A DNA stretch of 42,419 nt. It comes from a virus. The DNA lies in the IMG/VR virus record IMGVR_UViG_3300020419_000029, positions 1-42,419 of that record. One strand, written 5' to 3'. A program made the position numbers and the translations under genes. Below, one piece after another: positions 1 through 38,969 of this stretch; position 1 is the stretch's first letter, and every line of letters starts with the position of its first letter. The notes beneath the pieces were generated by a model. The model ran no database searches. It was given only the letters and a program-made list of their open reading frames with translations, and was not told where the DNA came from.

Positions 1-822
1 TACTCCGCCACAATTTTCTAATAAATCTACTTTATCAAGCCAAACTCTCTTTTTCCATTCTCCAAATTCTACTATAAGATAATTGGATCCACATACCTTA
101 ATAGTGCCAACATCGTTTGTTTCTTTTAGAGCAACAATATCACCAACATTAAATAGTTTACCTTCAACGTATTCTTCTCGTTTTTCAGATACTGGGTCTA
201 GCTTTATTTCTATCTTCTGTTCTTTAAGACCCATGCCTTTTCTTACAGTAAGGAATAATTCTTTAGGATCTACATTCTTAGGTAGTCCTTTGGCAAATGA
301 TGCCATATCGTTATCTGCTGCAGCTGCTCTCATTTTAGAAGCAGACATCCCTGTCACTCCTTCTGCATCTGGATCTCTATCTCCTGCTGAAACTACTTTA
401 ATCTGATCCTTAAATTCGTAGAATCCATGACGAGATTTTACGCCATTATATTTATTAAGTAGTATTGAAAATTCTTTTACCCTATCTGAACCTGCGACCA
501 TATTTACTTTCGTATATCCTTGGTCGTATAATTTAGTTGCTATGTCCAATACCGTTCTTACATCATTATCTGCCATGATTGAACGTGCATGTTTAGGAAA
601 TATTTTTCTAAGGAATTTTATTTTTTGCTTGAATGTAAGAGGATTCTTTTTAGGATCTTGTGATTTGGAGGCATATATTCTATAAGAACCGCCAGAAGCC
701 TTTTTTAATTGCTCGAACAACTTTTCATGCCCTGTTGTTGGAGGATTAAAACGTCCGAACACAAAGGTCATTTCACCTTTTGCCTCTTTTAAATATTCGC
801 TAAATCTTATAAAATTACTCAT
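1..822 (-). CDS. Nucleotidylyltransferase (NMNAT/cytidylyltransferase-like) with C-terminal extension, partial
   Basis: Partial: 274 codons are visible and the C-terminus lies beyond the left edge. The start at 822 overlaps the stop of the upstream gene (ATGA). The N-terminus carries the nucleotidylyltransferase signature FGRFNPPTTGH (about residues 22-32), where the T-x-G-H is the nucleotide-binding HxGH-type motif. A SASKMR motif follows near residue 163, matching the ISSTxxR-type motif of this fold. The family transfers NMP from NTP to a phosphate-bearing acceptor (NMN, glycerol-3-phosphate, phosphopantetheine); the acceptor here cannot be told from sequence. A short beta-rich tail after about residue 220 looks like a small SH3-like add-on. 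It is the fourth gene of a late-promoter operon with a ligase-like protein, so a role in NAD/AMP transfer or virion-associated chemistry is possible but unproven. Confidence 0.75.
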   Translation of the reverse strand, partial: MSNFIRFSEYLKEAKGEMTFVFGRFNPPTTGHEKLFEQLKKASGGSYRIYASKSQDPKKNPLTFKQKIKFLRKIFPKHARSIMADNDVRTVLDIATKLYDQGYTKVNMVAGSDRVKEFSILLNKYNGVKSRHGFYEFKDQIKVVSAGDRDPDAEGVTGMSASKMRAAAADNDMASFAKGLPKNVDPKELFLTVRKGMGLKEQKIEIKLDPVSEKREEYVEGKLFNVGDIVALKETNDVGTIKVCGSNYLIVEFGEWKKRVWLDKVDLLENCGGV

Positions 823-1190
823 GCTTGTTCATTCCCAGGGGTTTTTGTTTTTAACTTTTCTCTATCAGCCTTTTTTATTCTAGGCAAAAGTTTCTTAGCA
901 ATTTTACTAATTGCACCTTTTTTCTTAGCAAGTTTCTTTTCTAATTCTGCACGTGCAGCAAAAGATAATGCAGACTTGTCTTTATTCTTTAGGATTTTTT
1001 TTATTAAAAGGGTTCGGGCCGCCTTAGTTGCTCGGGCCTTTAACTTTTCTGGGGAAGCGAGTTTCTTTGCCGCTTTCTTACGGCCTCTTAGAATCTTAGC
1101 CTTATTTCTTCTAAATGCCGCTTTCATTTTCTGGCGCTGTGCCAGATTCAAAGCTTCATCTAGTGCTATGTGTTCTTTAAGAGTTAACAT
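819..1190 (-). CDS. Small, very lysine-rich basic protein of unknown function
   Basis: A 123-residue protein dominated by Lys, Arg, Ala and Leu (many KK and AKK runs), predicted almost entirely helical and strongly positive. No enzyme motif is visible. It sits between the ligase-like gene upstream and the nucleotidylyltransferase gene downstream, overlapping the latter by 4 bases, and so belongs to the late operon that starts at the TATAAATA box at 3949-3956. The composition suggests nucleic-acid binding, perhaps a histone-like or internal virion protein, but this rests on composition alone. Confidence 0.7.
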   Translation of the reverse strand: MLTLKEHIALDEALNLAQRQKMKAAFRRNKAKILRGRKKAAKKLASPEKLKARATKAARTLLIKKILKNKDKSALSFAARAELEKKLAKKKGAISKIAKKLLPRIKKADREKLKTKTPGNEQA

Positions 1191-1210
1191 TGTATCCTCG
1201 GTTACCCATA

Positions 1211-2452
1211 TTAGTTAGGATTGTCCCAACCTTTTATAATATCTTTGCTAAAGTTGTTAGTAGAAAATTCCAATCTATCAACAAGTTTAACAGCTCCACC
1301 TTCCATTCGATCAATAGCAACAAAACCTTCTGGGTTGGTTACTCTAAATCCGGATTTAGTCTTTACAAATGTCCCAATTTTATTGAGACTATTAAGTTTA
1401 TTTATAATAATTAATTTACTATCCACCACTAAATTCTGCAATTCAAACACTTTTTGCAGGTTTTTTATATTACCTTTACTAAAAAACTTTAATAATTCAT
1501 CTCTTTTAGTTATTTGTACGTCTTTACCTTTCTGTGAAGAACGTTTATCGATTTCTTTTGCATATCTATCGTTGACAAACATGACTAACCCTGTGGCATG
1601 TTTTTTAGTATCAGAAATTCTTTGGCCTTCTCTAACCTTTCTATTATTATAAATGTTAATAATTAAATTTAATTCTTTGTTTGATTCTATTTCTTTTAAT
1701 GTTGATGCTGATATCTGTTTAAATAATTTACCAGCGGCAGATAGTTTCTTTGTCACTTCAGCAGTTTCTTTTGCAGTAAAAGTAGCAGTACCAGATAGGT
1801 CTGGGAGAGTGGCATCTTGCATCCATACACTACTTGACGCCCTTAATTTCGGTACTATTTCTCTTCCAAATTCTGCTTTCATAGTTTCAAATGTTGCTCC
1901 ACTATAGGTTGTATGCCATACAATACCTATTTTAGCCTTTGTAATCTCTTTAGCAAGTGCACTGTCAGTAGGGACAGCATAAGCAATGGTATTAGGATGA
2001 AAAACAATATGACTGACTCCATCTATTCGCTCCTTCTTTAAGTCCGATTTATCAAACATGAAGTCACCTTGAATAACTCCTTTAATGCCTAATTTTTGTA
2101 ACTCATCAAATGCTAGTATTAATTTCTTAGTAAGGTCACCAGAAGTATCTGCTTTAATATCTTCATGTGACTTATAAATTTTAGGATCAGCATTAAAAAT
2201 TCCTTTCTTTGCTACAAAAAAGGATCCATCTCTTGGATCCTCTCCAGCAAATACGGCGGGGGCGCCGTCCCATTTAACAGTGATATCCACAGGTGATTTG
2301 GAATTACCACTCAACATATCCCTCAGACTTCTTAGCGCTAGGATAGCCTGGCGCGCCCCCTTAACTCCACCGTCAAGTATCAAATCCTCAATATGAGTCA
2401 TATGAGTATTTTTGCCTGCGGCCTCTGATAAGTATCCAGTTAATGATTTCAT
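1211..2452 (-). CDS. Putative nucleotidyltransferase/polynucleotide-ligase-like protein (KxDG motif)
   Basis: A 413-residue protein. Residues 60-63 read KWDG (bases 2264-2275) at the end of a beta strand, matching the KxDG adenylation motif I of ATP/NAD-dependent ligases and capping enzymes. Downstream, in the order expected for that fold, are a VIQGDFMF segment near residues 127-133 (motif III-like), HIVFHP near 148-153 (IIIa-like), EGFVAI at 375-380 (motif IV-like) and AVKLVDR at 387-393 with K389 (motif V-like). The large spacing between motifs III and IV implies an inserted helical region (about 200-360). The product is known to me only as an unassigned protein of marine T4-like phages; the ligase assignment is my inference from motif order. 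Second gene of the late operon, 3 bases after the PD-(D/E)XK-like gene. Confidence 0.7.
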   Translation of the reverse strand: MKSLTGYLSEAAGKNTHMTHIEDLILDGGVKGARQAILALRSLRDMLSGNSKSPVDITVKWDGAPAVFAGEDPRDGSFFVAKKGIFNADPKIYKSHEDIKADTSGDLTKKLILAFDELQKLGIKGVIQGDFMFDKSDLKKERIDGVSHIVFHPNTIAYAVPTDSALAKEITKAKIGIVWHTTYSGATFETMKAEFGREIVPKLRASSSVWMQDATLPDLSGTATFTAKETAEVTKKLSAAGKLFKQISASTLKEIESNKELNLIINIYNNRKVREGQRISDTKKHATGLVMFVNDRYAKEIDKRSSQKGKDVQITKRDELLKFFSKGNIKNLQKVFELQNLVVDSKLIIINKLNSLNKIGTFVKTKSGFRVTNPEGFVAIDRMEGGAVKLVDRLEFSTNNFSKDIIKGWDNPN

Positions 2453-2455
2453 TAA

Positions 2456-3919
2456 TTATCCTTTATATAATTTTTTAAATTCATTTGTCATAGTAGCATT
2501 AAAATTAGGAGCACTTCTAAAGTCTCCCTTATATCTTAGTATTATATTACATACTGTGACTTTACCAATCATTAAATCGAATTTTAAATTGGCAGCTGTT
2601 GCACCAGGTTCGAATGCTTGTTTAGCACCTGGAGTGAATATCATTTTGGGTTTGCCTTGAGTGAATAAATCGTCCAGTTGTGATGTTACTGAATCAATGT
2701 CTTTATATTCCCCCTTTTCTACTACTACGCCTTTTGATGGGCCGTAGTCACCTATCCCCGTAACCAATGTAAAATCAAAATCAAATTGTTTTAGTTCTTT
2801 TAAATCAGCTTTAAATATTAATTGTACTAACTGATTTGCAATTAAGTCTCCATTATCCATAATGGTTTTACCCATTACTTTAAATAATGTTCTTTTGCCT
2901 TTTAATACTCTATTTACCAAGTCGTTTGGTATTCTCTGTACGTATTGTTTCCAATTTTTATTGTTTGGTCTTTCTTTCTTTAGGTCTTTCATTAATTCGG
3001 GTGATAGGACTTTAAGTCTCGCTGCTAGTTTTATCACATGCACATAAAAATTACCAGCATCTTTTTCAATACCTTCTCTTACCTTTTTCAGTTCTGGAGA
3101 ACCATTTAAAAGGCTAGAAAAAGCTTTATTAATGAGAGTAGGATCACCTGTTGTAATCCTTGGTTTTTTCTTTAACGAAACTCCTAAATATTTTTTACCC
3201 TTTCTAATAATAAAATCAGAAGAGTTAAAATCTGTCATTCCGTATTTAGTTCTTTGAAATTGTTTTACATCATCATCCCAGGCTTGGCCTGTTAAATAAA
3301 CCATATCTGCTCCACCATAACCTGCACTAATTATTGCATTAGCTGCAGAAACGGCTTGACATAGATTTGGATAATCACCTTTCAAAGCATCAACTTGACC
3401 TTGTTTATATCCCTTAACCTTTTTCAGTTGACCTCTTACTAATTCTATAAGAGCATCCATTTCATCTGAATTGGTTATTTTATGTTGTTTAGGAAATACA
3501 CATAGTGCCGCAGTCATTAATTCATTAGGGTCATCCCCAGCAGCACTTCTTTTTCCAGTAGGTCTTACGTTAACGTAAATTGTTTTGTCTAATTCATTAT
3601 ATTGAATTGCATAATCTTTTTCTTTACGAGCACCAGGGACCTGGCCTCTAGATAGTTCGGGGTGGTCATCAATTATTTTATTTGCAAGAGCAGTAAACTT
3701 TTCTCTATCCTTATCATCAATTAATTGTGATATGGCTAGTCTTTTCCCTGTTTGTTTCTTAGGTCTTGTATCGTATTCTATTTCAGAATTGATTGACCCG
3801 ATTTGATCATCTATATCCGACAATAAGTCTAAAGCAAATTTCTTTTCATTGCCTGTAAATTTAAGATTAGATAAATCTTCTCTTATTTCTTGTCTGTAAT
3901 GTTGACCAAAACGTCTCAT
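2456..3919 (-). CDS. Putative PD-(D/E)XK nuclease-like protein
   Basis: A 487-residue protein and the first gene of a late operon (TATAAATA at 3949-3956, start at 3919). Around residues 232-250 is a pattern SSDFII...KKYLGVSLKKK: an Asp at the end of one strand (D235) and, after a short turn, a second strand ending S-x-K (S248, K250). This resembles the D-(E/S)xK core of the PD-(D/E)XK nuclease fold with Ser in the usual Glu place. The N-terminal third is helical and basic; the C-terminal 100 residues look beta-rich. No other motif is recognised. It could equally be a non-catalytic virion protein that has kept the fold. The context, a ligase-like gene directly downstream, fits a DNA-processing pair. 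Confidence 0.65.
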   Translation of the reverse strand: MRRFGQHYRQEIREDLSNLKFTGNEKKFALDLLSDIDDQIGSINSEIEYDTRPKKQTGKRLAISQLIDDKDREKFTALANKIIDDHPELSRGQVPGARKEKDYAIQYNELDKTIYVNVRPTGKRSAAGDDPNELMTAALCVFPKQHKITNSDEMDALIELVRGQLKKVKGYKQGQVDALKGDYPNLCQAVSAANAIISAGYGGADMVYLTGQAWDDDVKQFQRTKYGMTDFNSSDFIIRKGKKYLGVSLKKKPRITTGDPTLINKAFSSLLNGSPELKKVREGIEKDAGNFYVHVIKLAARLKVLSPELMKDLKKERPNNKNWKQYVQRIPNDLVNRVLKGKRTLFKVMGKTIMDNGDLIANQLVQLIFKADLKELKQFDFDFTLVTGIGDYGPSKGVVVEKGEYKDIDSVTSQLDDLFTQGKPKMIFTPGAKQAFEPGATAANLKFDLMIGKVTVCNIILRYKGDFRSAPNFNATMTNEFKKLYKG

Positions 3920-3948
3920 TGATAGCCCCTTAAAGTATGTGACATATC

Positions 3949-3956
3949 TATTTATA
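3949..3956 (-). promoter_or_regulatory. T4-type late promoter for the left-end operon
   Basis: Perfect TATAAATA on the minus strand, about 30 bases upstream of the start at 3919, with no other promoter in the gap. This octamer is the T4 gp55-dependent late promoter. It predicts late expression of the four-gene operon running off the left edge. Confidence 0.7.
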
Positions 3957-3961
3957 ACATT

Positions 3962-4159
3962 TTAGTTATCAACTTCCTCTTCAGGCGTGTCAAATAGATA
4001 AAAAGGGTTGGGTGTTATATTACCCGTTCTATCAAATGCTATAATTTTAGTTTCATGTAATTTAGTTATGGCCTTTTCAGCACCAACCCTAATCCCTATA
4101 TGGTATGCTTGATATCCACATCCCATAATACATATTAAAAATATGATATATTCAAACAT
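3962..4159 (-). CDS. Small membrane-anchored protein
   Basis: 65 residues. The N-terminus (residues 3-18) is a hydrophobic segment rich in Ile, Phe and Cys, which reads as a single transmembrane anchor or uncleaved signal, followed by a short charged domain ending in an acidic tail. It overlaps the preceding small gene by 8 bases, in a cluster of small early-type genes running from 4937 to 3962. I do not recognise it. Confidence 0.6.
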   Translation of the reverse strand: MFEYIIFLICIMGCGYQAYHIGIRVGAEKAITKLHETKIIAFDRTGNITPNPFYLFDTPEEEVDN

Positions 4160-4331
4160 AAATTCGTTCCATTACTGAAAAATATCCTTTACCCACCATA
4201 GAGGCGTGAAATTTTGTAGCCTCTTTTAATGATTCAAAGATATATTCAGCAATTATCTTTTCTGTTTTCTTTTCTTTTGCCGTTACTTTAAAAGCCATTT
4301 GGTCATGTTCTCCTGTATATCCGCCACACAT
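4152..4331 (-). CDS. Small hypothetical protein
   Basis: 59 residues starting MCGGYTGEHD and ending ERIYV. The ATG at 4331 lies 2 bases after the stop of the gene upstream, behind a GGA-type ribosome site, and the TGA overlaps the next start. The middle is Lys/Glu-rich and probably helical. No family is recognised. Support is the tight tandem packing and the absence of any other gene in this stretch. Confidence 0.55.
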   Translation of the reverse strand: MCGGYTGEHDQMAFKVTAKEKKTEKIIAEYIFESLKEATKFHASMVGKGYFSVMERIYV

Positions 4332-4333
4332 TA

Positions 4334-4639
4334 TTACTTTCCTATATGTTGTATATCCTTACTAGGGATAACTTGGTATGCACCCTTGTTATATGCAGGG
4401 GCAACTGTGAAATTTTTAGAAGCTTCTTTTTTCCAAGAATCATCTTTACCACATTGATATTCAGACTTGCCAGTCCAAGATGGATATTTCTTATTAAATT
4501 CTTCCATCTGTATTTGTGCGTAAGATTTTTCTGGTGTATAAGACTTAAATGCGGGTTTTACTTTGCGTTTTGGTTTAAGTGAAGTGGTTTTTCTTTTACG
4601 ACCAGACGGGTCGTATCGAAGTGATCCAATATAATTCAT
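4334..4639 (-). CDS. Small basic hypothetical protein
   Basis: 101 residues, starting MNYIGSLRYD, behind a good GGAG ribosome site. The first 35 residues are very basic (RKRKTTSLKPKRK-type stretch); the rest is polar with several Tyr and Trp and no predicted membrane segment. No motif is recognised. It is the head of a three-gene run with the two small genes that follow it at 4331 and 4159. Confidence 0.6.
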   Translation of the reverse strand: MNYIGSLRYDPSGRKRKTTSLKPKRKVKPAFKSYTPEKSYAQIQMEEFNKKYPSWTGKSEYQCGKDDSWKKEASKNFTVAPAYNKGAYQVIPSKDIQHIGK

Positions 4640-4742
4640 AATATCTCCAATAATAATAAAATGGAATCTCTCTCATGTTCCTGCGGCCTTCTCGGTTGAC
4701 AACCCCTCATTGCTTTAATACGTCCAATAGGTGACGTTGGTT

Positions 4743-4937
4743 TTATCTACAGAGAGCTTCGAACCTTAGTTCAACCAGTCTATCAATAAAAGTATCATTA
4801 TCCTTACAGTATGGAAGTTTATCTATCCCATAATTACTTGCAATGTCGTTAATTACATTCCAAATATCATCGGAAGCCATTTCACATACATCTGCCAGAA
4901 TGTTTTCCATTAACATTTCATTTACTTCGTTTGACAT
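4743..4937 (-). CDS. Small acidic hypothetical protein
   Basis: 64 residues, acidic and helical (starts MSNEVNEMLM). It has an AAGGAG ribosome site and a clear sigma70-type promoter (4967-4995) directly upstream, so it is the first gene of its own transcript. No family recognised. About 100 bases of apparently empty DNA (4640-4742) follow it. Confidence 0.65.
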   Translation of the reverse strand: MSNEVNEMLMENILADVCEMASDDIWNVINDIASNYGIDKLPYCKDNDTFIDRLVELRFEALCR

Positions 4938-4966
4938 ATTTACTCCTTATTATTTAATATAAGTAT

Positions 4967-4995
4967 ATTATATCAAATCCTAAGTACTTTGTCAA
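4967..4995 (-). promoter_or_regulatory. Sigma70-type promoter upstream of the 4937 gene
   Basis: TTGACA at 4990-4995 and TATAAT at 4967-4972 on the minus strand, with a 17-base spacer. It belongs to the subset with AAAAAAGTG directly before the -35 box, shared with the promoters at 26397 and 28644. Confidence 0.8.
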
Positions 4996-5002
4996 CACTT
5001 TT

Positions 5003-5224
5003 TTAAAATAAATTTAATTGTTTTACACCATCAGACCCGCGAATGGTCCACTTCTTATCCTGTGTTTTACGAAAGAACATTGCACCTGATGAATCCTGGG
5101 TTAGTACAAATATATCTCCTATTTTAAATGGAGTTCCTTCTATTTTTAAAATTTCATCAGGGTGTGTATCGGTCATTCTTAAACCGAGCTCATCAATCAT
5201 AAAATTGTAATCTACATACAGCAT
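5003..5224 (-). CDS. Small hypothetical protein
   Basis: 73 residues, starting MLYVDYNFMI and ending KQLNLF. The centre (EGTPFKIGDIFVLTQD...) looks like a small beta-barrel, with an alternating strand pattern and a final strand. It follows the tRNA gene by 15 bases and is read from the same strand. The promoter at 4967-4995 lies directly downstream of its stop, so it belongs to the ThyX/tRNA transcript. Not recognised. Confidence 0.6.
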   Translation of the reverse strand: MLYVDYNFMIDELGLRMTDTHPDEILKIEGTPFKIGDIFVLTQDSSGAMFFRKTQDKKWTIRGSDGVKQLNLF

Positions 5225-5239
5225 TGTATTTCCTTATAT

Positions 5240-5316
5240 TGGCGCACCCGAGAGGAATCGAACCTCTAACCTACGGCTTAGAAGGCCGTTGCTCTATCCT
5301 ATTGAGCTACGGGCGC
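5240..5316 (-). tRNA. tRNA-Arg (anticodon UCU)
   Basis: A complete cloverleaf reads on the minus strand. The 7-bp acceptor stem is GCGCCCG with CGGGTGC (one G-U), the anticodon stem is ACGGC/GCCGT with loop CTTCTAA giving anticodon TCT, and the T stem is AGAGG/CCTCT around TTCGATT. The discriminator is G and CCA is encoded at 5242-5240. It decodes AGA, the favoured Arg codon of AT-rich phage genes. It lies between thyX and a small hypothetical gene and is probably processed from their shared transcript. Confidence 0.95.
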
Positions 5317-5328
5317 AGTGTTTTTAGT

Positions 5329-5988
5329 TTAAATTATATCGTCTAATGGAAAGATTTGGTAAATAACATCACCAACTGCTTTCGCTATTTCGATATGCTC
5401 CTTCTGGGTACCATTTTCGGATCTTAATTGGACGTAATGAATCCAAGAACGAAGAGTTCCATTTACATACATACGGGACATGGTTAACCCTTCAGGTAAT
5501 ACTGCTCTTGCTTGTTCTTTAGCAATACCAGCCTGAATGGCCCATTCATAAGCTTGTCTACATCTTTCGATTACAACTTCTTGATATGATTCCCATACAT
5601 AATTAATAGAGTCTTCCATGGGTATTTCTACACTGTTCTGTCTATTCTTTGCATCTTGGAGTCTAGCTTCTCTAGTAATAAATTCCATATCCTCTGTAGG
5701 ATTGGCATATCTTTGAGAAAACTCTTGGAATGAAAAAGAACGATGACGCAGTATTTGTCTACCTATGTCTCTTGTGGTTTCAATCTCAAGACAGGCACTT
5801 ACCATTTCTAATGGAGACCAGTGCTTGTGCTTGATTAGATATTTTACAAGCTTCTCAGCCGTTTGTTCGTTATTTTGATTAGAAGGGTTACTTACCCTTG
5901 CACAAAATGCAACCATCTGCAGTAGGTCTTCCGAAAGTTCACTATCTGCAGGTGGTTGACTATATGATATAAGTTTCACATTAAACAT
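5329..5988 (-). CDS. thyX: Flavin-dependent thymidylate synthase ThyX
   Basis: 219 residues. The ThyX signature RHRX7S is exact: RHR at residues 81-83 and S91 (RHRSFSFQEFSQRY). ThyX makes dTMP from dUMP using methylenetetrahydrofolate, FAD and NADPH, and supplies thymidine for phage DNA synthesis. Length and motif position match the family. T4 itself uses the unrelated ThyA-type enzyme (Td), so this is a typical marine-phage replacement. It follows a small membrane-protein gene and precedes the tRNA. No strong ribosome site is visible before the ATG at 5988, so the start is supported mainly by homology. Confidence 0.93.
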   Translation of the reverse strand: MFNVKLISYSQPPADSELSEDLLQMVAFCARVSNPSNQNNEQTAEKLVKYLIKHKHWSPLEMVSACLEIETTRDIGRQILRHRSFSFQEFSQRYANPTEDMEFITREARLQDAKNRQNSVEIPMEDSINYVWESYQEVVIERCRQAYEWAIQAGIAKEQARAVLPEGLTMSRMYVNGTLRSWIHYVQLRSENGTQKEHIEIAKAVGDVIYQIFPLDDII

Positions 5989-5991
5989 ATA

Positions 5992-6171
5992 TTAGTCACT
6001 CTTTACCAAAGTGTAAACGCCCCATGCGAGGCCTACCCATGCGAGTAGTTTGGCAATTCCGCCAAATAAAATAACAGAGCCACAGATTACAATAAGCCCA
6101 AGACCATCAATTGATGTTCTTTCTCCTACTCTATCCATAACCCAATCTTTTGCGTTTAGTAACATATCCAT
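5992..6171 (-). CDS. Small membrane protein
   Basis: 59 residues, starting MDMLLNAKDW and containing a DRVGERTSIDGLGL stretch followed by one or two hydrophobic segments (about residues 24-56) ending in VKSD. The ATG at 6171 has a GGAG ribosome site 9 bases upstream, and the gene sits tightly between gp41 and thyX. Similar short proteins are common in marine T4-like phages, from memory of the family pattern; function unknown. Likely inner membrane. Confidence 0.7.
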   Translation of the reverse strand: MDMLLNAKDWVMDRVGERTSIDGLGLIVICGSVILFGGIAKLLAWVGLAWGVYTLVKSD

Positions 6172-6180
6172 ATATTTCTC

Positions 6181-7575
6181 CTATATTTTGAAGTCTGCAA
6201 ACGTGTCTTTACTTTCTCTATCCCCCCACGTTGCAATTGGTTTATCGGGGATAGTGCTGTCAGCAATTAAATCTGCCTGAGCACTTTCTTCAACATCATA
6301 TAGTTTCATGCGGGAACGATCGACGCCAATTACAAATCTCTTGTACTTGGTAGGATCATTATACCGGTTTTTCAATTGTTTTACCAGTATCTGGCCAAGT
6401 TCCTCTAGTTCCTCTGTTGAAATAAGAGCAAACATTAGGTCTGCCGTAGCAGGTAAACCAAATGATTCCGAAGTGTCCTCTAGTCCGACATCAGTATTAC
6501 TAAATCCAGACCTTGTGGTCTGTGTTGCCGAAACAATAGGGACGTTAAACTCTACAGCAAGTCCACGCATTTCTTCTGCAATAGCCTTGATGTAGGTATA
6601 ACTATTTATACTTCCACCCATACCTTTCATACGGGAAGATGCACAAATATTTAGATAGTCGATATAAATCATATCGGGACTAAAATTCTTTTTAAGTTTT
6701 AATTCGTTGAGTAGCGCTCTAAAATGTCCAGTATGAGCAGCACCTGTGGGGTATTCTTTAATAATTAATTTACCAACTGACGCCTTAGCAATCTTTTCTA
6801 TCTTAGTATCAAATACCTTTTTAGGTAATGATTCAAGTTGCTGTATTGGTAAATCCATAAGATTGGCATCTATTCTTTCTGCAATTCTTTCTTCAGCCAT
6901 TTCCATAGTAATATACAGGACATTCTTACCTTGTTCAAGCACGGATGCTGCACAATGACACATAAATAATGATTTACCCACACCAGTTCCTGCCAAAGCA
7001 ATGTTCAATGTTTTATTAGGTAAACCACCCTTTGTAATCTTGTTCATATAATCCAAATCAAATGGGATACGATTTTCTACCCTATTGTAAAAATCATATC
7101 TGTCGTCTGAATTATCTATATAATCATGGCCAATTGCCTGATCGAATGATACGCCTAAGGCTGATGATAATATTTCTGGTATCGCGCCTTCTGTTTGGTC
7201 TTGATTTTTACCATCAATAATCTGGATTGAATCCATAATGGCATTATATACAGCTCTATCCTTACACCATTTTTCAGATTCGGTTATAATGTAATCGGTA
7301 TCGACATCTGTCTTTTCTTTAATTTCTGATATAAGACTAGCAGCATTATTTAATATATCTTCGGGTGCATCTAGTTTACGTAATTCTAAATCTAGGATTC
7401 TACCAGTAGGTAATTTATTATGTTTGGCTACAAATTTTACAATTAAATCAAATACAGTTCTATGCTGTCCTTCAAAATAATCTTTTTGTAAATACGGTAT
7501 TACCCGTCTACAGTATTCCTCGTTATTGAGGAGATGACTCAGAATGTGAGTCGGTAGTTGATTCGTTATATCCAT
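6181..7575 (-). CDS. 41: Replicative DNA helicase (T4 gp41-like, DnaB family)
   Basis: 464 residues, close to T4 gp41 (475). Walker A GTGVGKS lies near residue 195 and Walker B MIYIDYLN near 305, followed by the sensor region (ATQTTRSG) and an arginine-containing C-terminal strand, all in RecA/DnaB order. This hexameric helicase unwinds the fork 5' to 3' on the lagging strand. The start at 7575 is inside the end of the upstream gene (53-base overlap), with an AAGGA ribosome site about 10 bases upstream. It is in the same run as uvsX. No gp61-type primase is seen in the window; the AEP-like protein at 14649-15560 may act with it. Confidence 0.95.
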   Translation of the reverse strand: MDITNQLPTHILSHLLNNEEYCRRVIPYLQKDYFEGQHRTVFDLIVKFVAKHNKLPTGRILDLELRKLDAPEDILNNAASLISEIKEKTDVDTDYIITESEKWCKDRAVYNAIMDSIQIIDGKNQDQTEGAIPEILSSALGVSFDQAIGHDYIDNSDDRYDFYNRVENRIPFDLDYMNKITKGGLPNKTLNIALAGTGVGKSLFMCHCAASVLEQGKNVLYITMEMAEERIAERIDANLMDLPIQQLESLPKKVFDTKIEKIAKASVGKLIIKEYPTGAAHTGHFRALLNELKLKKNFSPDMIYIDYLNICASSRMKGMGGSINSYTYIKAIAEEMRGLAVEFNVPIVSATQTTRSGFSNTDVGLEDTSESFGLPATADLMFALISTEELEELGQILVKQLKNRYNDPTKYKRFVIGVDRSRMKLYDVEESAQADLIADSTIPDKPIATWGDRESKDTFADFKI

Positions 7576-7870
7576 TCTTTGCTTTTTCCTTGATACTATC
7601 AGTTACAATACTTTGTAACACATCACCCAAGTAATTTTTAAATTCTATCGAAGTATCCAATTCGTCTATATTATATATTCCAGCATCTTGGATATTAAAT
7701 GTAAATGAAAGTGTGGCCAAATCTAGTTCTTGGTCCTCTTTAATTGATACTGTTCCATATACAACCACTACACCAGCATAGGGAGAGTTATCTTTAAATT
7801 TAACTCCATAAAATGCCTCTCCTTCTTTTTCTACAAATGTATATTCGGATTCATCAATGTAATTATTCAT
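7523..7870 (-). CDS. Hypothetical protein between uvsX block and gp41
   Basis: 115 residues, starting MNNYIDESEY. The first 85 residues are a beta-strand-rich domain (VVVVYGTVSIKE..., LATLSFTFNI), and the tail is Ser/Thr/Glu-rich (STTDSHSESS). The last 53 bases overlap the start of gp41, so the low-complexity tail may be shaped by the overlap. Not recognised. The order next to gp41 and uvsX is typical of marine T4-like phages. Confidence 0.65.
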   Translation of the reverse strand: MNNYIDESEYTFVEKEGEAFYGVKFKDNSPYAGVVVVYGTVSIKEDQELDLATLSFTFNIQDAGIYNIDELDTSIEFKNYLGDVLQSIVTDSIKEKAKNGYNESTTDSHSESSPQ

Positions 7871-8265
7871 TAGGCTTCCTTATCTAGATTCCAAAGTATC
7901 CTAACACCTTTAGAGGTTCTGTTTAGGAAAAACTTATATTTAGCTTGTTCTTCTCTCCATTCTCGTAACCATGTATGTCCGTCTCTTTCAGCATCTGCAA
8001 ATACAGCATTGGTGACCACAATAGGTATTAATATACTAGCATGTACAATAATACTTGTTACTATGCTATAATCAATAAATCCCATATAATATATGGCTAT
8101 AAATCCAAAAAATGCACTCCACATACAAAATAAAACTAGCATAAAATAGGCTTGTAGACTAGGTTCTGGTACATATCTTAATGGGTTATATCTGACGTCC
8201 ATTACAACTCTCCATGAATCTACAATCCACATGAAGAATCTTTTATATAAACTGGGTTTTTGCAT
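7870..8265 (-). CDS. Membrane protein of unknown function
   Basis: 131 residues. Two transmembrane segments are visible: about 45-68 (LVLFCMWSAFFGFIAIYYMG) and about 75-97 (VTSIIVHASILIPIVVTNAV). The flanking ends are charged, with a Trp/Arg-rich C-terminus (TWLREWREEQ). The stop of uvsX overlaps its ATG. No family function is known to me; probably an inner-membrane protein. Confidence 0.65.
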   Translation of the reverse strand: MQKPSLYKRFFMWIVDSWRVVMDVRYNPLRYVPEPSLQAYFMLVLFCMWSAFFGFIAIYYMGFIDYSIVTSIIVHASILIPIVVTNAVFADAERDGHTWLREWREEQAKYKFFLNRTSKGVRILWNLDKEA

Positions 8266-9314
8266 TATTCTTCCTCTAGGTCTATTTCAATATCAAGCAT
8301 GGGTTTATGACCTATTTGATAATGAGCCTTGACAAACTTTTTAAAGTCCGTTTCATTTAAAATAGGATCCCAAAATTCTTTTGTTTGTGTATTCTTTTCA
8401 CGAACCTTAGGTTCTACTATCTCTCCAGTAGCATGGTCAACTCTAGCATACCAACCCATAGTTGGTTTTACTACGTAACCTCCTGCCATGGCAACATCGA
8501 GTAGTCCACCAAATTCGGAGATACCACCTTCCCATGTAACAGCAACTGGAATCTTGGATTTTTCTTTTACAAATCTAGACTTTTCTACATTGATAATAAA
8601 GTTATATCCTTTAATCTCTGTTCCTTGTTTTTGTTGTTGTCTTCCAATAATCCAGATATTATCTGCTGAGTAGTATATACCAGTACCACCTGATACAACT
8701 GCCTTAGGGAATAACCCAATTTCTTGGTAAGTATGGTTAACGGCAAGTAAAGGGACATTCTTCATAGTTAGATAAGGAGTGACCATTCGGAATAGTCCCT
8801 TTAGTGCCTTGGCCCTTGACATATCAGCCACTGACTTCTCGTTAAGAGCATCTTCTAGCTCTTTTTTACTTGCAAGGTTACCAATGGAATCAATTACGAT
8901 AATTACCTTATCACCACGCTCTATTGCATCCAGTTGGTTAACCAAGTCAAACTTTAATTGTTCTACATCTGTAATAGGAGTATGTAATACCCTTCCAGCA
9001 TCAATACCAAATGATTCAAAATATGATTGGGGTGAGCCAAACTCTGAATCATAAAATAACATTACAGCATCTTCATGTTCTCTCATATAGGCACCAGCCA
9101 TAAGTAGAGCAAAAGATGTTTTAAAATGTTTACTTGGTCCAGCCAATACAGTAAGCCCAGAGGTCAAACCTCCGTCCATATCGCCAGATAAAGCAACATT
9201 TACCATGGGCACATCTGTAGCGACCATATCTTTTTCAGTAAAGAAAACTGATTTTTCCAACACTTCGGTTGTCTTAATCTTTGAATTCTTTTTTAGTTTA
9301 TCCATTATAGACAT
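8265..9314 (-). CDS. uvsX: RecA-like recombinase UvsX
   Basis: 349 residues (T4 UvsX 391). The Walker A variant GPSKHFKTS at residues 59-67 is the UvsX hallmark (T4: GPSKSFKS). The Walker B-like strand VIIVIDSIGN lies near 140, and the conserved VNHTYQEIG (L2 region) near 190 is followed by a SGGTGIYYSAD stretch. UvsX forms filaments on ssDNA and drives recombination-dependent replication with UvsY (34631-35077) as loader. The C-terminus is acidic. It is translated from the end of the bS21 gene, sharing bases at the stop/start, so it is coexpressed with bS21. Confidence 0.95.
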   Translation of the reverse strand: MSIMDKLKKNSKIKTTEVLEKSVFFTEKDMVATDVPMVNVALSGDMDGGLTSGLTVLAGPSKHFKTSFALLMAGAYMREHEDAVMLFYDSEFGSPQSYFESFGIDAGRVLHTPITDVEQLKFDLVNQLDAIERGDKVIIVIDSIGNLASKKELEDALNEKSVADMSRAKALKGLFRMVTPYLTMKNVPLLAVNHTYQEIGLFPKAVVSGGTGIYYSADNIWIIGRQQQKQGTEIKGYNFIINVEKSRFVKEKSKIPVAVTWEGGISEFGGLLDVAMAGGYVVKPTMGWYARVDHATGEIVEPKVREKNTQTKEFWDPILNETDFKKFVKAHYQIGHKPMLDIEIDLEEE

Positions 9315-9577
9315 TATCTTATTCTCCTAGACCTATCTGGTCCTAATTGTAATGCACGCTCTTTTTTGCGCCACCGTGCTTTTGCTTCAGCCTTCTTCCT
9401 TTTTCTTTTGGAAGTAGGTTTTTCATAAAATTCTTTTTCTCTCACCGTTTGTAGTATACCAGCTCGTTCTACTGCCTTCCTAAATTTTCTTAGGGCAACA
9501 TCGAATGGCATTTCTCTTGGTGGTCTTTTGTCTCTAGGGTTTCTGTTTTTCCTAGGTCTTAAATCAATACTTGGCAT
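9314..9577 (-). CDS. rpsU: Ribosomal protein bS21 homologue
   Basis: 87 residues. After a basic 22-residue N-terminal extension, residues 23-60 follow the bacterial bS21 pattern closely: [17 protein letters not shown], then [17 protein letters not shown]. bS21 sits at the 30S platform near the anti-Shine-Dalgarno helix and helps mRNA initiation; bacterial proteins are about 65-75 residues. A phage copy could enter host ribosomes and favour phage mRNAs; this is inference, although bS21 genes are known in marine phages. It is the first gene after its own promoter (9603-9631) and is translationally linked to uvsX, so it is expressed with replication genes. Confidence 0.93.
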
Positions 9578-31511: not shown

Positions 31512-32084
31512 TTATAGCATAAAGAGTTCTAATTTCTCTTTTGCTTTTTCCTCCTTTGCAAATTTCTTAATGGCCGCATCTTTGGTTCGGACAGTAGATA
31601 TTCTTTGTCTTAAAGTATCGACATACTGTAGGGTCTGTTCAGCACCTGCATCGTCCATACCCATGGCAACAAAGTCTTCAATACCCATCTTCTCGATGAA
31701 TTTAAATTTAATATCTTGTTGTTTCTTTTCCTTGGTTATTCGCCTAATAAAGGCGAAATAGCATATTTGGGTGAAGTAAGAGAATGCATTAGGTTTACCA
31801 GTCCTGGTTGCTGTTTCAATGTTATAGTTACCAATTGCCCTCAAGCAATTTTCAACGGCATCCATTACCATTTCTTCTCTATAGGTGTATCGAACAAAGT
31901 TCGGTCTGTGAGATAATCCTTCAGCAATCTTGATAAAACATGTTGCAATGTAATCAGTCACTTTAGGAACTTCTAGGTTTTTTTCTTTGGCCGTTTTACT
32001 AGATAATGCATAGTCATAGACGGCTTCTGAAAAGTCACGGTTATTAACATAATGTGGTTTTTCTTTTGGCTTAAGTTTTGCCAT
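31512..32084 (-). CDS. 55: Late sigma factor gp55
   Basis: 190 residues (T4 gp55 185). The N-terminal half matches T4 gp55: HYVNNRDFSEAVYDY, then IAEGLSHRPNFVRYTYREEMVMDAVE and NAFSYFTQICYFAFIRRITKEKK (a sigma region 2-like helix). It directs host RNA polymerase to TATAAATA late promoters, which are present in this window, with gp45 as activator. Promoter 32110-32138; next genes are 47 and 46. Confidence 0.95.
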   Translation of the reverse strand: MAKLKPKEKPHYVNNRDFSEAVYDYALSSKTAKEKNLEVPKVTDYIATCFIKIAEGLSHRPNFVRYTYREEMVMDAVENCLRAIGNYNIETATRTGKPNAFSYFTQICYFAFIRRITKEKKQQDIKFKFIEKMGIEDFVAMGMDDAGAEQTLQYVDTLRQRISTVRTKDAAIKKFAKEEKAKEKLELFML

Positions 32085-35736: not shown

Positions 35737-37086
35737 TTATGAATTTTGCATAATTCCATCAACTCTAAAGACTCTGAAGTATGGGTTAGCACGGTTTGTA
35801 CCAGCACCTGCTGCAGTTCCCACGAATGGGTTCTGTTGCATTCCATATCTTGTTTTGAATCCGATTCTAGGTTGGAAGTCTTCCTCACCCACTGCTTTAA
35901 CCATAGTTAAAGGAACGTATGGGCAATAGAATAGACCTGCGTCATAAGGATTAGCTCCTCTGTAACCAACTGTTACGAAATCTTCTGTAGCATACGGATC
36001 TACATAGATTTTGAACTTACCGTTAAGAACACCAGCAAAAGTATTACCAGTATCATCAACGTTTAAGTTAGTTGATAGTGCAGGACTATAATCAAGCATA
36101 CCAGAAGCTGCAAGTACTGAAGCAACATCAGAAGAACAAAGTACAAAGTTACCTTTTCCTCTTCTTGTTTCTTTAGCAATTACGTTTGCTTCTCTTTCGA
36201 TTTGCATGATAAGACCTTTAGCCTTCTCAGCCAACCATCTACCATCACTGTCAGTGTGCATATTAAATACACCTTTAAGTGCTAGTGAAGATTGAAGAGC
36301 ACCGATTTTAGCTTTCTGATAAACAGTTCTTACTAATTCTCTGTTGATTTCTGCAAGAATTTCTGCAGATAGAATGTTAGCAAGTTCTGCTTCAGCATCA
36401 AGACCATGAATTGCTTTAAGGTCTTGCGCTAATTCCATTGTGTACTCAGCTTTAAGAGCTCTGGACTTAGCAGTTACAGTAGCTTTCTCGATTGAGAATG
36501 CCATTTCACCGAAAGATCCACCAGCACTTGGTGCAGGAGTACCCAATGCTTCAGCATCGGCTGTGTCCAAACCAGTACCGAATGTAGATACGGTATCAGC
36601 TTCGTCAGCAATTGTCCCAGTAGCTGGAGATTCTGAATCAGTTACTCCACCTAGACCAGTTACTCCACCTGCGTCTGCAGAGTGAGTTCCAGTTCCAGAG
36701 AAGTCTGTATCAGCTTCACCGAATAATGCTTCTGAACCACCTTGTGAGCTATACTTAGACTTCATTGCAAAGATAAGACCTGTTGGTCCACTCATAGGTT
36801 GTACACCTGCGATATCATATGCAATAAGGTTAGGCATTGCTCTTCTTACCAATGAGATAAGAACTGGGTCGAAAGTTCCAATATTAGAACCTGTTTGGTT
36901 AGCGGCAGCGGCTTCAGTCATGAAGTTACCACCTTGATGAGCAGCTTCTTCACGAAGAGCTACTTCTTGGTTTTCCAATAGTCTAGCAACAGTTGCTTTC
37001 TTATGCTTGTCCTGAATTTCAGGAACATCTGTATGCTCAAGTACTGGAGACCACTTTTCCATTAAGTTTGAATCTGCGTTAAACAT
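35737..37086 (-). CDS. 23: Major capsid protein (T4 gp23)
   Basis: 449 residues (T4 521). Core patterns of gp23: LVRRAMPNLIAYDIAGVQPMSGPTGLIFAMK in short, IEREANVIAKETRRGKGNFVLCSSDVASVLAASGML, then the C-terminal ending NPYFRVFRVDGIM. The HK97-type fold is expected. The N-terminal 55 residues would be cut by the protease gp21 during head maturation, as in T4. It follows the scaffold gp22 with a GGGG-type ribosome site and ends in a strong terminator. Confidence 0.97.
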   Translation of the reverse strand: MFNADSNLMEKWSPVLEHTDVPEIQDKHKKATVARLLENQEVALREEAAHQGGNFMTEAAAANQTGSNIGTFDPVLISLVRRAMPNLIAYDIAGVQPMSGPTGLIFAMKSKYSSQGGSEALFGEADTDFSGTGTHSADAGGVTGLGGVTDSESPATGTIADEADTVSTFGTGLDTADAEALGTPAPSAGGSFGEMAFSIEKATVTAKSRALKAEYTMELAQDLKAIHGLDAEAELANILSAEILAEINRELVRTVYQKAKIGALQSSLALKGVFNMHTDSDGRWLAEKAKGLIMQIEREANVIAKETRRGKGNFVLCSSDVASVLAASGMLDYSPALSTNLNVDDTGNTFAGVLNGKFKIYVDPYATEDFVTVGYRGANPYDAGLFYCPYVPLTMVKAVGEEDFQPRIGFKTRYGMQQNPFVGTAAGAGTNRANPYFRVFRVDGIMQNS

Positions 37087-37106: not shown

Positions 37107-38297
37107 TTACTTGTTAAATTTTGAGATTGCTTGTGTGTACTTAGACATTGAACTACCGACTTCGGCTGGTGCCTCATCGTTACCTACAACGCTAGATACT
37201 TCATCAACTGATTCGTTAATTTCTTTCTTGAAGTATGACTCTTTAACAACTTTAACTTTCATTTCAAAGTTATCTTTGTTATCGAATTCAATATCTTCAA
37301 CTAAAGAACCTAATTTCTCAGCTTCTGTGTCTGCAAGCCCCGAAGATTGTTCTCTCACTACTTCTGATCTTTCCAAAATTTGAACTGATTCATGTAGTTT
37401 AATATTATCTTCTGTGGTTTTGTTTAATGTTTCTTCTAGTTCAGCAACCTGTTCTGATAATTCATCAACAAGGTCAACCTTACCTTCAGGAACATCGATA
37501 TAATGTTCTTTGAACACTGATTGTAAAGAAGTCATGAACTCTTCAGCAATTTCAGTCCTAAGACCGTTAGTTACTGCGACTTCATTTTGGTCCATCCAAT
37601 TAGAAACTACATAGTTTAAGTAGGAATCAACCTTCTCAACTAGTTCATTTTTAATATCAGAAACCTCTTCTTCGATATTTTGCGCATACTCAGCTTCTAG
37701 CCTTTCAACTTCTTGGCTTAACTTACTTGTAAGTACAGCTTCGAAAATTGCTCCAGCTTTTCCACGGAATCCATCTGAAAGAGTAGCTTCTTCTTTGATA
37801 ATGTTATCTAAATCTTCATCAAAATCAATAGCTTCTACTTTAGCTTTCGCCTTAGGATCTGCCATTTTCTTTGTGACTTTAGTTGCTTTATCAACTGATG
37901 CGATGGAATCTTCTTCCTCGCCTTCAGATACTCTAGACATCTTAGCAAAAAGTTTTTGCGCGTCTTCTTTTCTAGCTTTCTTCAGCATTTCAACAGCTGC
38001 TTGAATAACTCCGGCTTTAGTTTTCGGAATAGAAATTTCTTTGACTTCAGGCTTTTCTTCCTCTTCGTCATCGTCTTTTTCATCTTCTTCTTTTACTTCG
38101 TCCTCATCTTCGTCCTCATCATCTTCATGATCGGCTTCCATTTTTTTGGACTTTTTACCGTAATTACCGCCTTCTTCAAGATTTTCCTCGTTTTCAACTT
38201 GTTGGTCTTCAACGAGCTCTTGATCAAGCTCTTCAGCATCTTGTTGAATGTCTTCAGAAACTAAATCTTCATTATTTTTAATTTCGTCATTTGACAT
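37107..38297 (-). CDS. 22: Prohead scaffold protein (T4 gp22)
   Basis: 396 residues. Very acidic N-terminus (long Glu/Asp runs, about residues 1-95), then Lys/Glu-rich helical coiled-coil region (about 130-345), typical of the head core protein. It is removed by gp21 proteolysis. It is longer than T4 gp22 (269). Position between gp21 and gp23 matches T4. A clear GGAG ribosome site precedes the ATG. Confidence 0.88.
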   Translation of the reverse strand: MSNDEIKNNEDLVSEDIQQDAEELDQELVEDQQVENEENLEEGGNYGKKSKKMEADHEDDEDEDEDEVKEEDEKDDDEEEEKPEVKEISIPKTKAGVIQAAVEMLKKARKEDAQKLFAKMSRVSEGEEEDSIASVDKATKVTKKMADPKAKAKVEAIDFDEDLDNIIKEEATLSDGFRGKAGAIFEAVLTSKLSQEVERLEAEYAQNIEEEVSDIKNELVEKVDSYLNYVVSNWMDQNEVAVTNGLRTEIAEEFMTSLQSVFKEHYIDVPEGKVDLVDELSEQVAELEETLNKTTEDNIKLHESVQILERSEVVREQSSGLADTEAEKLGSLVEDIEFDNKDNFEMKVKVVKESYFKKEINESVDEVSSVVGNDEAPAEVGSSMSKYTQAISKFNK

Positions 38298-38312: not shown

Positions 38313-38969
38313 TTAAGAATTTACAAGTTTAGAGAGGAAATTCTTAAAAGCTTTAATCTCAACATCCGATGAACGCATGCCTCGAGCTTCTTTTATTTCA
38401 GTCTCAATTTCTTCAATTTCTTGTACTTTAAGGATTCCATTATCCCATACCCAAGATACACCTTCCATTATTCCATTCACAAAAGCGCCTGGAGCGGAAG
38501 GGTCTTGGACTATGTCTACTGTGGCTAACATAAAGTCATCTGCCACATAGGAAGTCCCTCTTTTTTGTACAAGAGTACCCATACCACGACTTGATACACC
38601 AAGCTTAACTCCACCTTCAAGTAGACCTTCTACGATCTTGCCCATAGGGGTATTTAATATTGATGCTTTTCCAACAACATCACTTCCACTCCATTTGAGT
38701 TCAGTGATTTTGTGTGAAACTTTATCAAGATTGATAGTCGGTCCTTCTGGGTGATTTAACTCACCAACCGCTCTACCAGTCTTTACTTGTTCTGTTACAT
38801 ATTTGTTTACTGCGCCTTCCAATACACTCTTTTCATATATACGACCATTTCTATTCTTCTGGTCTGCTTGCATGAAAACGCCTTCGATAGCATATTCTCT
38901 TGTGCCATCTTTTCTTTTTTCTGTAATAACCTGTAGGTTACTATCATGATATTCTGATATCAGTTTCAT
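38313..38969 (-). CDS. 21: Prohead protease (T4 gp21)
   Basis: 218 residues (T4 212). Catalytic residues: His in GELNHPEGP (about residue 72) and Ser in GVSSRGMGTL (about 127), with Asp in VDIVQDPSAPG (about 157). Processes scaffold and capsid during maturation. Overlaps the upstream small gene by 4 bases and precedes gp22. Confidence 0.94.
   Translation of the reverse strand: MKLISEYHDSNLQVITEKRKDGTREYAIEGVFMQADQKNRNGRIYEKSVLEGAVNKYVTEQVKTGRAVGELNHPEGPTINLDKVSHKITELKWSGSDVVGKASILNTPMGKIVEGLLEGGVKLGVSSRGMGTLVQKRGTSYVADDFMLATVDIVQDPSAPGAFVNGIMEGVSWVWDNGILKVQEIEEIETEIKEARGMRSSDVEIKAFKNFLSKLVNS

Follow-up and report, generated by a model that had tools for sequence, protein, structure and literature searches.

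The window analysed here is the whole 42,419 nt of IMG/VR virus record IMGVR_UViG_3300020419_000029, a 42.4-kb virus contig from a marine T4-like phage whose closest annotated relatives are mostly Kyanoviridae. At its left end, on the minus strand from position 3919 to position 1, the list of open reading frames (ORFs) contains four tandem genes in the order P1, P2, P3, P4 (Table 1), neighbouring ORFs overlapping or being spaced by no more than 20 nt. They encode a protein that is nuclease-like at most (P1), the DUF6267 protein P2, a very basic protein (P3) and a nucleotidylyltransferase (P4). Judged by their N-terminal residues, all four begin with a T4-type capsid-targeting sequence (CTS) of 10–14 residues with an L/I-x-E-like end, a feature that a preliminary description of this DNA had missed. 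We consider it likely that P1–P4 are T4-type internal head proteins, which would be packaged with the phage DNA and injected with it.

The preliminary description placed the four genes behind one late promoter, and both the ORFs and the promoter are borne out by comparison with relatives. The octamer TATAAATA is not in itself enriched in this AT-rich window (12 observed compared to 8.2 expected), so that only its conserved position carries weight. In all 33 distinct loci (at least 50% identity) it lies in the 90 nt before P1, compared to 0–2% upstream of P2, P3, P4, uvsX, gp41 and thyX and 0.8% in random 90-nt windows. Together with the presence of a gp55-like sigma factor in the window, this conservation makes a single conserved late promoter for P1–P4 a well supported reading of the sequence.

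Relatives of P2 were found in 464 phage records and relatives of P4 in 521, overwhelmingly cyanophages, and a survey of gene neighbourhoods indicated that the order is kept: P4 follows P2 in 222 of the 254 loci having both, P1 precedes P2 in 70/75 and P3 follows P2 in 41/48. The block is flanked by gp43-uvsX-gp41 on one side and by head, primase and nrd genes on the other. In the resequenced S-PM2 record LN828717, P2 and P4 form one ORF without a CTS (S-PM2d138; L456, 2998–4773), while five loci (L123, L130, L108, L132 and L344) encode single proteins of 604–848 aa in which a P3-like basic domain lies C-terminal to the P4 domain. These natural fusions support the functional coupling of the operon parts that had been suggested before. 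In the older S-PM2 record the P2–P4 ORF is split in two, apparently by a frameshift.

Table 1. Features of the P1–P4 operon and of head-assembly and late genes in the window (a slash marks a predicted cleavage site)
Feature	Position	Strand	Remarks
P1, 487 aa, phrog_3060, nuclease-like at most	2456..3919	(-)	conserved S234-D235 and S248-L-K250-K251
P2, 413 aa, DUF6267 (PF19782), candidate ligase-like covalent nucleotidyltransferase	1211..2452	(-)	Pfam E 1.6e-101
P3, 123 aa, phrog_23027, T4 IP-like basic protein	819..1190	(-)	Lys/Arg-rich
P4, nucleotidylyltransferase (HxGH superfamily, NMNAT-like), at least 274 aa, truncated by window end	1..822	(-)	PF01467, phrog_395
CTS-like leader of P1, MRRFGQHYRQEIRE/D	3878..3919	(-)	disordered in model; pattern in 27/37 family N-termini
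Putative CTS of P2, MKSLTGYLSE/A	2423..2452	(-)	register same as T4 IPIII MKTYQEFIAE/A
CTS-like leader of P3, MLTLKEHIALDE/A	1155..1190	(-)	pattern in 32/33 distinct family N-termini
Putative CTS of P4, MSNFIRFSEYLKE/A	784..822	(-)	pattern in 93/131 family N-termini; tag also in four virion-detected orthologues
T4-type late promoter TATAAATA	3949..3956	(-)	30 nt upstream of P1 start; conserved position
gp21-like prohead (head maturation) protease, presumed CTS remover	38313..38969	(-)	phrog_207 E 2e-77
gp22-like scaffold, presumed CTS-binding core	37107..38297	(-)	phrog_237 E 1.3e-68
Major capsid protein	35737..37086	(-)	phrog_138 E 3.9e-156
gp55-like late sigma factor	31512..32084	(-)	phrog_234 E 6e-50

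Capsid-targeting leaders and published virion proteomes

In the leader of T4 IPIII, residues 4 and 7 matter for targeting and residues 8 and 10 for cleavage, which the gp21 protease performs after L/I-x-E (PMC9026906). All four window leaders have aromatic or hydrophobic residues near positions 4 and 7, and their predicted cleavage sites are IRE/D, LSE/A, LDE/A and LKE/A. In the T4 sequences, ipIII starts MKTYQEFIAEA and ipI starts MKTFKEFTSTTTPVSTITEA; relatives of P3 begin MKSFKEYTDANE/A, which may be compared with MKTFKEF...ITE/A in T4 IPI. Two residues before the first Glu, the leaders of the P1, P2 and P4 families mostly have L or I, and in AlphaFold2 (AF2) models the leader residues are disordered (1–14 in P1, 1–16 in P2).

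The N-terminal pattern MxxxF..[FYH] occurs in 27/37 distinct N-termini of the P1 family and 30/145 of the P2 family, in addition to the P3 and P4 matches given in Table 1, compared to 14/575 in the other families of the window and 2% after internal methionines; shuffled leaders give far fewer matches. Fisher tests of the operon families against this background return p values of 1e-12 to 1e-69 with kinship ignored, and since related sequences were counted as independent these values overstate the significance of the motif. The contrast with neighbouring families under equal sampling is therefore the safer argument. A stricter CTS regular expression (regex), which matches T4 ipII and ipIII, had zero matches in the non-operon window families with at least five homologues.

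Many leaders of the P2 family have Leu instead of Phe, and the cyanophage types carry no tag. The leader is present in 58 of 66 distinct N-termini of the window-like group (at least 45% identity), in 3/27 of the group that comes next (HTVC008M-like for the most part) and in 0/17 of the cyanophage group, so its gain or loss has been modular. In Methylophilales phage Melnitz the P1-slot, P2, P3 and P4 genes all have tags. In relatives (G002, L387, 59081–61778; L002, 8995–12549), P4 is followed by more small genes with CTS-like starts (MKSFKELRE, MKKFKAFKKE, MITFKKYLEE, MKKFKQYIDE), so the packaged set may reach beyond the left end of the window.

The motif had been seen before a regex was drawn up for it, and published virion proteomes are therefore the real test. 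The P4 orthologue, a member of cyanophage core cluster T4-GC190, was found in virions of S-SM1 (PMC3037559) and in those of S-SCSM1 (PMC9602691), S-SZBM1 (PMC9146016) and S-CREM2 (PMC10665884). All four of these orthologues are tagged (S-SM1 MKKFSAFLNE/A, S-SCSM1 MKSFLQFLKE/A, S-SZBM1 MRFRQFIIE/A, S-CREM2 MKNFSSFLTE/A). The P2 homologues of S-SZBM1 (MAKNTHLEHLED...) and S-CREM2 (...KPLTHIEHPED) begin at the domain itself, without a leader, and are missing from the published lists of virion-detected proteins. In S-PM2, where T4-GC190 was not detected in the virion (PMC3037559), P4 sits fused behind the untagged P2. Among the six ORFs of the S-CREM2 genome that match the CTS regex, four are virion-detected non-structural proteins (p about 0.005), namely gp6 (an S-adenosylmethionine (SAM) hydrolase), gp13, gp14 (a kinase) and gp154; gp12 ('Cas9-like', ...LRFASFMAE/A) and gp15 (MNFSEFNE/S) are likewise virion-detected and have CTS-like starts. 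Of the settings proposed in the preliminary description, the inside of the virion is thus the one that both the leaders and the published proteomes speak for.

S-CREM2 gp12–gp15 (L455, 7704–13331) are four consecutive virion-detected genes, encoding a Cas9-like nuclease, a small protein, an APH-like kinase and a small protein; with the SAM hydrolase gp6 (L455, 3837–5081) they form a candidate set of injected effectors.

Conservation and predicted folds of the four proteins

The TTGH motif had led to the description of P4 as a nucleotidylyltransferase, and on sequence grounds this is a genuine one. It scores 24.5 bits against PF01467 (CTP_transf_like; cut-off 21) and carries GRFNPPTTGH; in its family GRxNPPTxGH is kept in 160 of 161 homologues and SxSxxR in 156, full-length members having about 340–650 aa. 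Scored against NCBIfam NadR as a test for an NMN adenylyltransferase proper, P4 reaches 20.8 bits against a cut-off of 341, and PDB sequences gave no match. The nucleotidylyltransferase of phage Melnitz (L007, 7628–9580) has a C-terminal DUF5824 (PF19141, E 2e-18).

P2 contains KWDG, EGFV and VKLVD, and all 65 homologues, with identity down to 28%, keep its residues K60, D62, G63, D130, E375, G376 and K389, in agreement with the earlier expectation for K60, D130 and K389. The AF2 model (pLDDT 87.6, pTM 0.84) has a helical insertion at 227–354 and places D130, E375-G376 and K389 on strands or at strand edges, in the order found in covalent nucleotidyltransferases, motif III having D in place of the E of ligases. 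A Foldseek search of the PDB returned ligases as its three top matches, ATP-dependent DNA ligases being best, at E values of only 0.04–0.14. DUF6267 is the only convincing match in Pfam, PDB sequence and profile searches returned nothing useful, and hhalign comparison with T4 Rnl2-like and marine phage DNA-ligase profiles gave probabilities below 1%, these profiles being shallow (Neff about 2.8). P2 thus resembles the ATP/NAD-dependent ligase superfamily in the order of its KxDG, EG and K motifs and in their secondary-structure context, but differs in the helical insertion that separates the III/IIIa-like part from motif IV, in having no profile-level similarity and in that no OB domain was seen. 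The ligase-like description given before is upheld by the invariant motif set and by ligases being the best plausible fold matches, and finds no support in profile comparison. From motifs and model together, P2 is probably a ligase-like adenylyltransferase; that it is a true nucleic-acid ligase is a more tentative proposal, which we think somewhat less likely to be right than wrong. We found no paper on DUF6267 in the open-access literature. The earlier statement that the set is unassigned in marine phages does not hold for all of it, as T4-GC190, to which P4 belongs, is a known virion protein (PMC3037559).

For P1 the description as PD-(D/E)XK-like fared less well. The protein contains SSDF and GVSLKK, and all 35 homologues keep D235, S248, K250 and K251, two of which (D235, K250) had been singled out initially. 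In the AF2 model (pLDDT 82.4) the conserved residues form part of a helix-strand-hairpin-helix segment that could belong to a PD-(D/E)XK core, but the (D/E) position of (D/E)xK is occupied by the invariant Ser248. Serine variants at this acid position exist in some restriction enzymes. Comparison with PDB folds gave no match at E≤0.001 (HincII was among the weak matches), the 35-member family had no convincing Pfam match, and matches in BFVD were limited to uncharacterised phage proteins. We therefore do not regard P1 as a proven PD-(D/E)XK nuclease, and think it rather unlikely to be one. The P1 profile did not match the genes in the P1 slot of S-SZBM1, S-SM1, HTVC008M, Melnitz or DLP_6, so this slot is filled by different genes in those phages.

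P3 is as basic as first described, with 33% K+R and an isoelectric point (pI) of 11.1. Like P1 it has no Pfam match, and by analogy it is probably DNA-binding.

Elsewhere in the window, the N-terminal part of the capsid protein contains ...NFMTE/AAAA, a candidate gp21-type site of the phage itself. A 65-aa ORF at 3962–4159 (minus strand), with a membrane-helix-like start and 58–60 distinct relatives, adjoins the late promoter upstream. Scans for sigma-70 promoters and terminators gave chance-level results only; a 12/12 sigma-70 promoter-like site with an extended -10 (TTGACA-17-TATAAT) at 4967–4995 (minus strand), just upstream of a 64-aa ORF, is the sole perfect match within 1–9500.

A proposed packaged enzyme set and its alternatives

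In the packaging model that we favour, P1–P4 would be made together late in infection from the one T4-type promoter, and their leaders would load them into the growing prohead core. The gp21-like protease is then predicted to trim the leaders at (L/I)-x-E, and the mature proteins to remain with the DNA and pass into the next host cell alongside it. The cargo would consist of three enzyme-like proteins (P1, P2 and P4), among them a nucleotidylyltransferase of the NMNAT/cytidylyltransferase type (P4) and a probable ligase-like adenylyltransferase (P2), and of histone-like P3, which resembles T4 IPI. It may act on nucleic-acid ends or on the nucleotide/NAD pool during the first minutes of infection, and our preferred guess for its role in the host cell is early processing of such ends or nucleotides, possibly as counter-defence.

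The operon proteins share with T4 IPI, IPII and IPIII a 10–14-residue N-terminal tag in equal register, a gp21-type site and a basic pI, but their mature parts have no sequence homology to these proteins, and the cargo here includes enzyme-like proteins and comes from one operon. T4 Alt, an ADP-ribosyltransferase, is packaged into the head and cut there by gp21, much as we propose here; it differs in enzyme class and in being processed C-terminally as well. The T4-GC190 proteins of S-SM1, S-SZBM1, S-SCSM1 and S-CREM2, known as cytidylyltransferase or 'NMNAT', are direct P4 orthologues that are experimentally in virions and CTS-tagged. In those four phages, however, the P2 homologue lacks a tag and was not detected in the cases checked, and the text read from the reports mentions no targeting tag. 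The ejection proteins of phiKZ and SPN3US, which belong to another phage group, are head proteins cut by the prohead protease after x-x-E and then ejected, the consensus in phiKZ being S/A-x-E (PMC9026906).

Several observations weigh against packaging. T4 ipI itself fails the strict CTS regex, many P3 relatives end their leader in A/F/T-x-E rather than L/I-x-E, and the P1 leader of the window is atypical. P2 is tagless in most cyanophages, and packaging is therefore not a trait of the whole P2 family. Peptide counts for P4 in the published virions are low (2–3 where given), some regex-positive ORFs such as SSZBM1_191 were not detected in virions, and we found no proteome of this phage or of another in which P1, P2 or P3 is CTS-tagged. 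The S-CREM2 authors could not exclude co-purification and left open whether the enzymes are packaged or contaminants (PMC10665884); as read from their N-termini, the tag on those enzymes argues for packaging.

In one alternative, the four proteins would be ordinary late cytoplasmic enzymes, the leader a composition bias at translation starts and the virion detections contamination. The motif is short and few peptides were recovered from S-SZBM1 and S-CREM2, but the strict pattern has no match in neighbouring families, P4 was detected in four independent virion proteomes, and tagged and untagged variants of P2 and P4 behave as predicted in three phages, and we regard this explanation as improbable. 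We think it equally improbable that the tagged proteins are mainly structural, as parts of the prohead core serving head shape or DNA condensation with vestigial catalysis: T4 IPIII does influence head morphogenesis (PMC9026906) and P3 is very basic, but P2 and P4 have kept their catalytic residues almost perfectly, and a passive core protein would have no need of them. A more serious alternative, though still a rather unlikely one, is an intracellular ligase system in which DUF6267 is the marine T4-like phages' own ligase in place of T4 gp30, while P4 provides or recycles its adenylate cofactor and the tags and virion presence are secondary. DUF6267, absent from T4 as the preliminary description held of the set, was present in 18/18 non-T4 phages tested, at least 14 of which have no PF01068, PF09414 or PF01653 ligase, although these phages had been chosen for carrying P2 or P4 relatives. 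The block adjoins gp43-uvsX-gp41, S-PM2 joins P2 and P4 in a single ORF, and the invariant motifs and fold matches of P2 also fit such a system. An ATP-dependent DNA ligase was recognisable in only three of the 18 phages (an RNA ligase too in one of these) and an NAD-dependent ligase in none, which fits a ligase role for DUF6267. However, the operon promoter is late and not of the replication class, and the profile comparison of P2 with phage DNA and RNA ligases speaks against it. The occurrence of a DNA ligase alongside DUF6267 in DLP_6, G001 and G002 weakens the idea that DUF6267 simply replaces gp30.

Two further proposals concern what an injected set would do. It is possible, and slightly easier to credit than the intracellular system, that the set is a counter-defence kit in which P4 restores NAD-type nucleotides and P2 repairs cut tRNA or DNA at time zero, in the manner of T4 Alt and IPI; this refines the packaging model, and both can hold. 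The CTS cargo of T4 includes the anti-restriction protein IPI and the enzyme Alt (PMC9026906), that of S-CREM2 includes a SAM hydrolase and a kinase, and P4 is weakly NMNAT-like. Against it, P4 and P2 are near-core genes in cyanophages, while most anti-defence genes are patchy. Much more speculative, and in our view hardly more probable than the structural explanation, is a virion ligase kit in which DUF6267 would be a new covalent-lysine ligase using an NAD-like dinucleotide and P4, which is fused to it in S-PM2, would regenerate the cofactor by re-adenylylating the released mononucleotide, both being injected and sealing DNA or host RNA before phage gene expression.

CTS cargo as a T4 concept and the P4 orthologues as virion proteins were already known. 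In the open-access literature the term 'capsid targeting sequence' and cyanophages were joined only in a T4 review, where cyanophages appear just in the reference list. What appears to be new is the tag on a set of enzyme-like proteins in marine phages, the match between its predictions and the proteomes, and the view of DUF6267 as a probable ligase-like cargo. T4-like phages belong to the most common viruses of the sea, and in several of them 'metabolic' proteins of purified virions could not be told from contaminants by those who described them. From a loading tag one can predict directly which proteins enter the particle and which of their variants do not, as well as the unknown families that are active as infection starts. 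The cyanophage core nucleotidylyltransferase, together with DUF6267 (annotated as unknown), would gain a place in the infection cycle, and a sequence rule would be at hand for recognising injected effectors in marine metagenomes.

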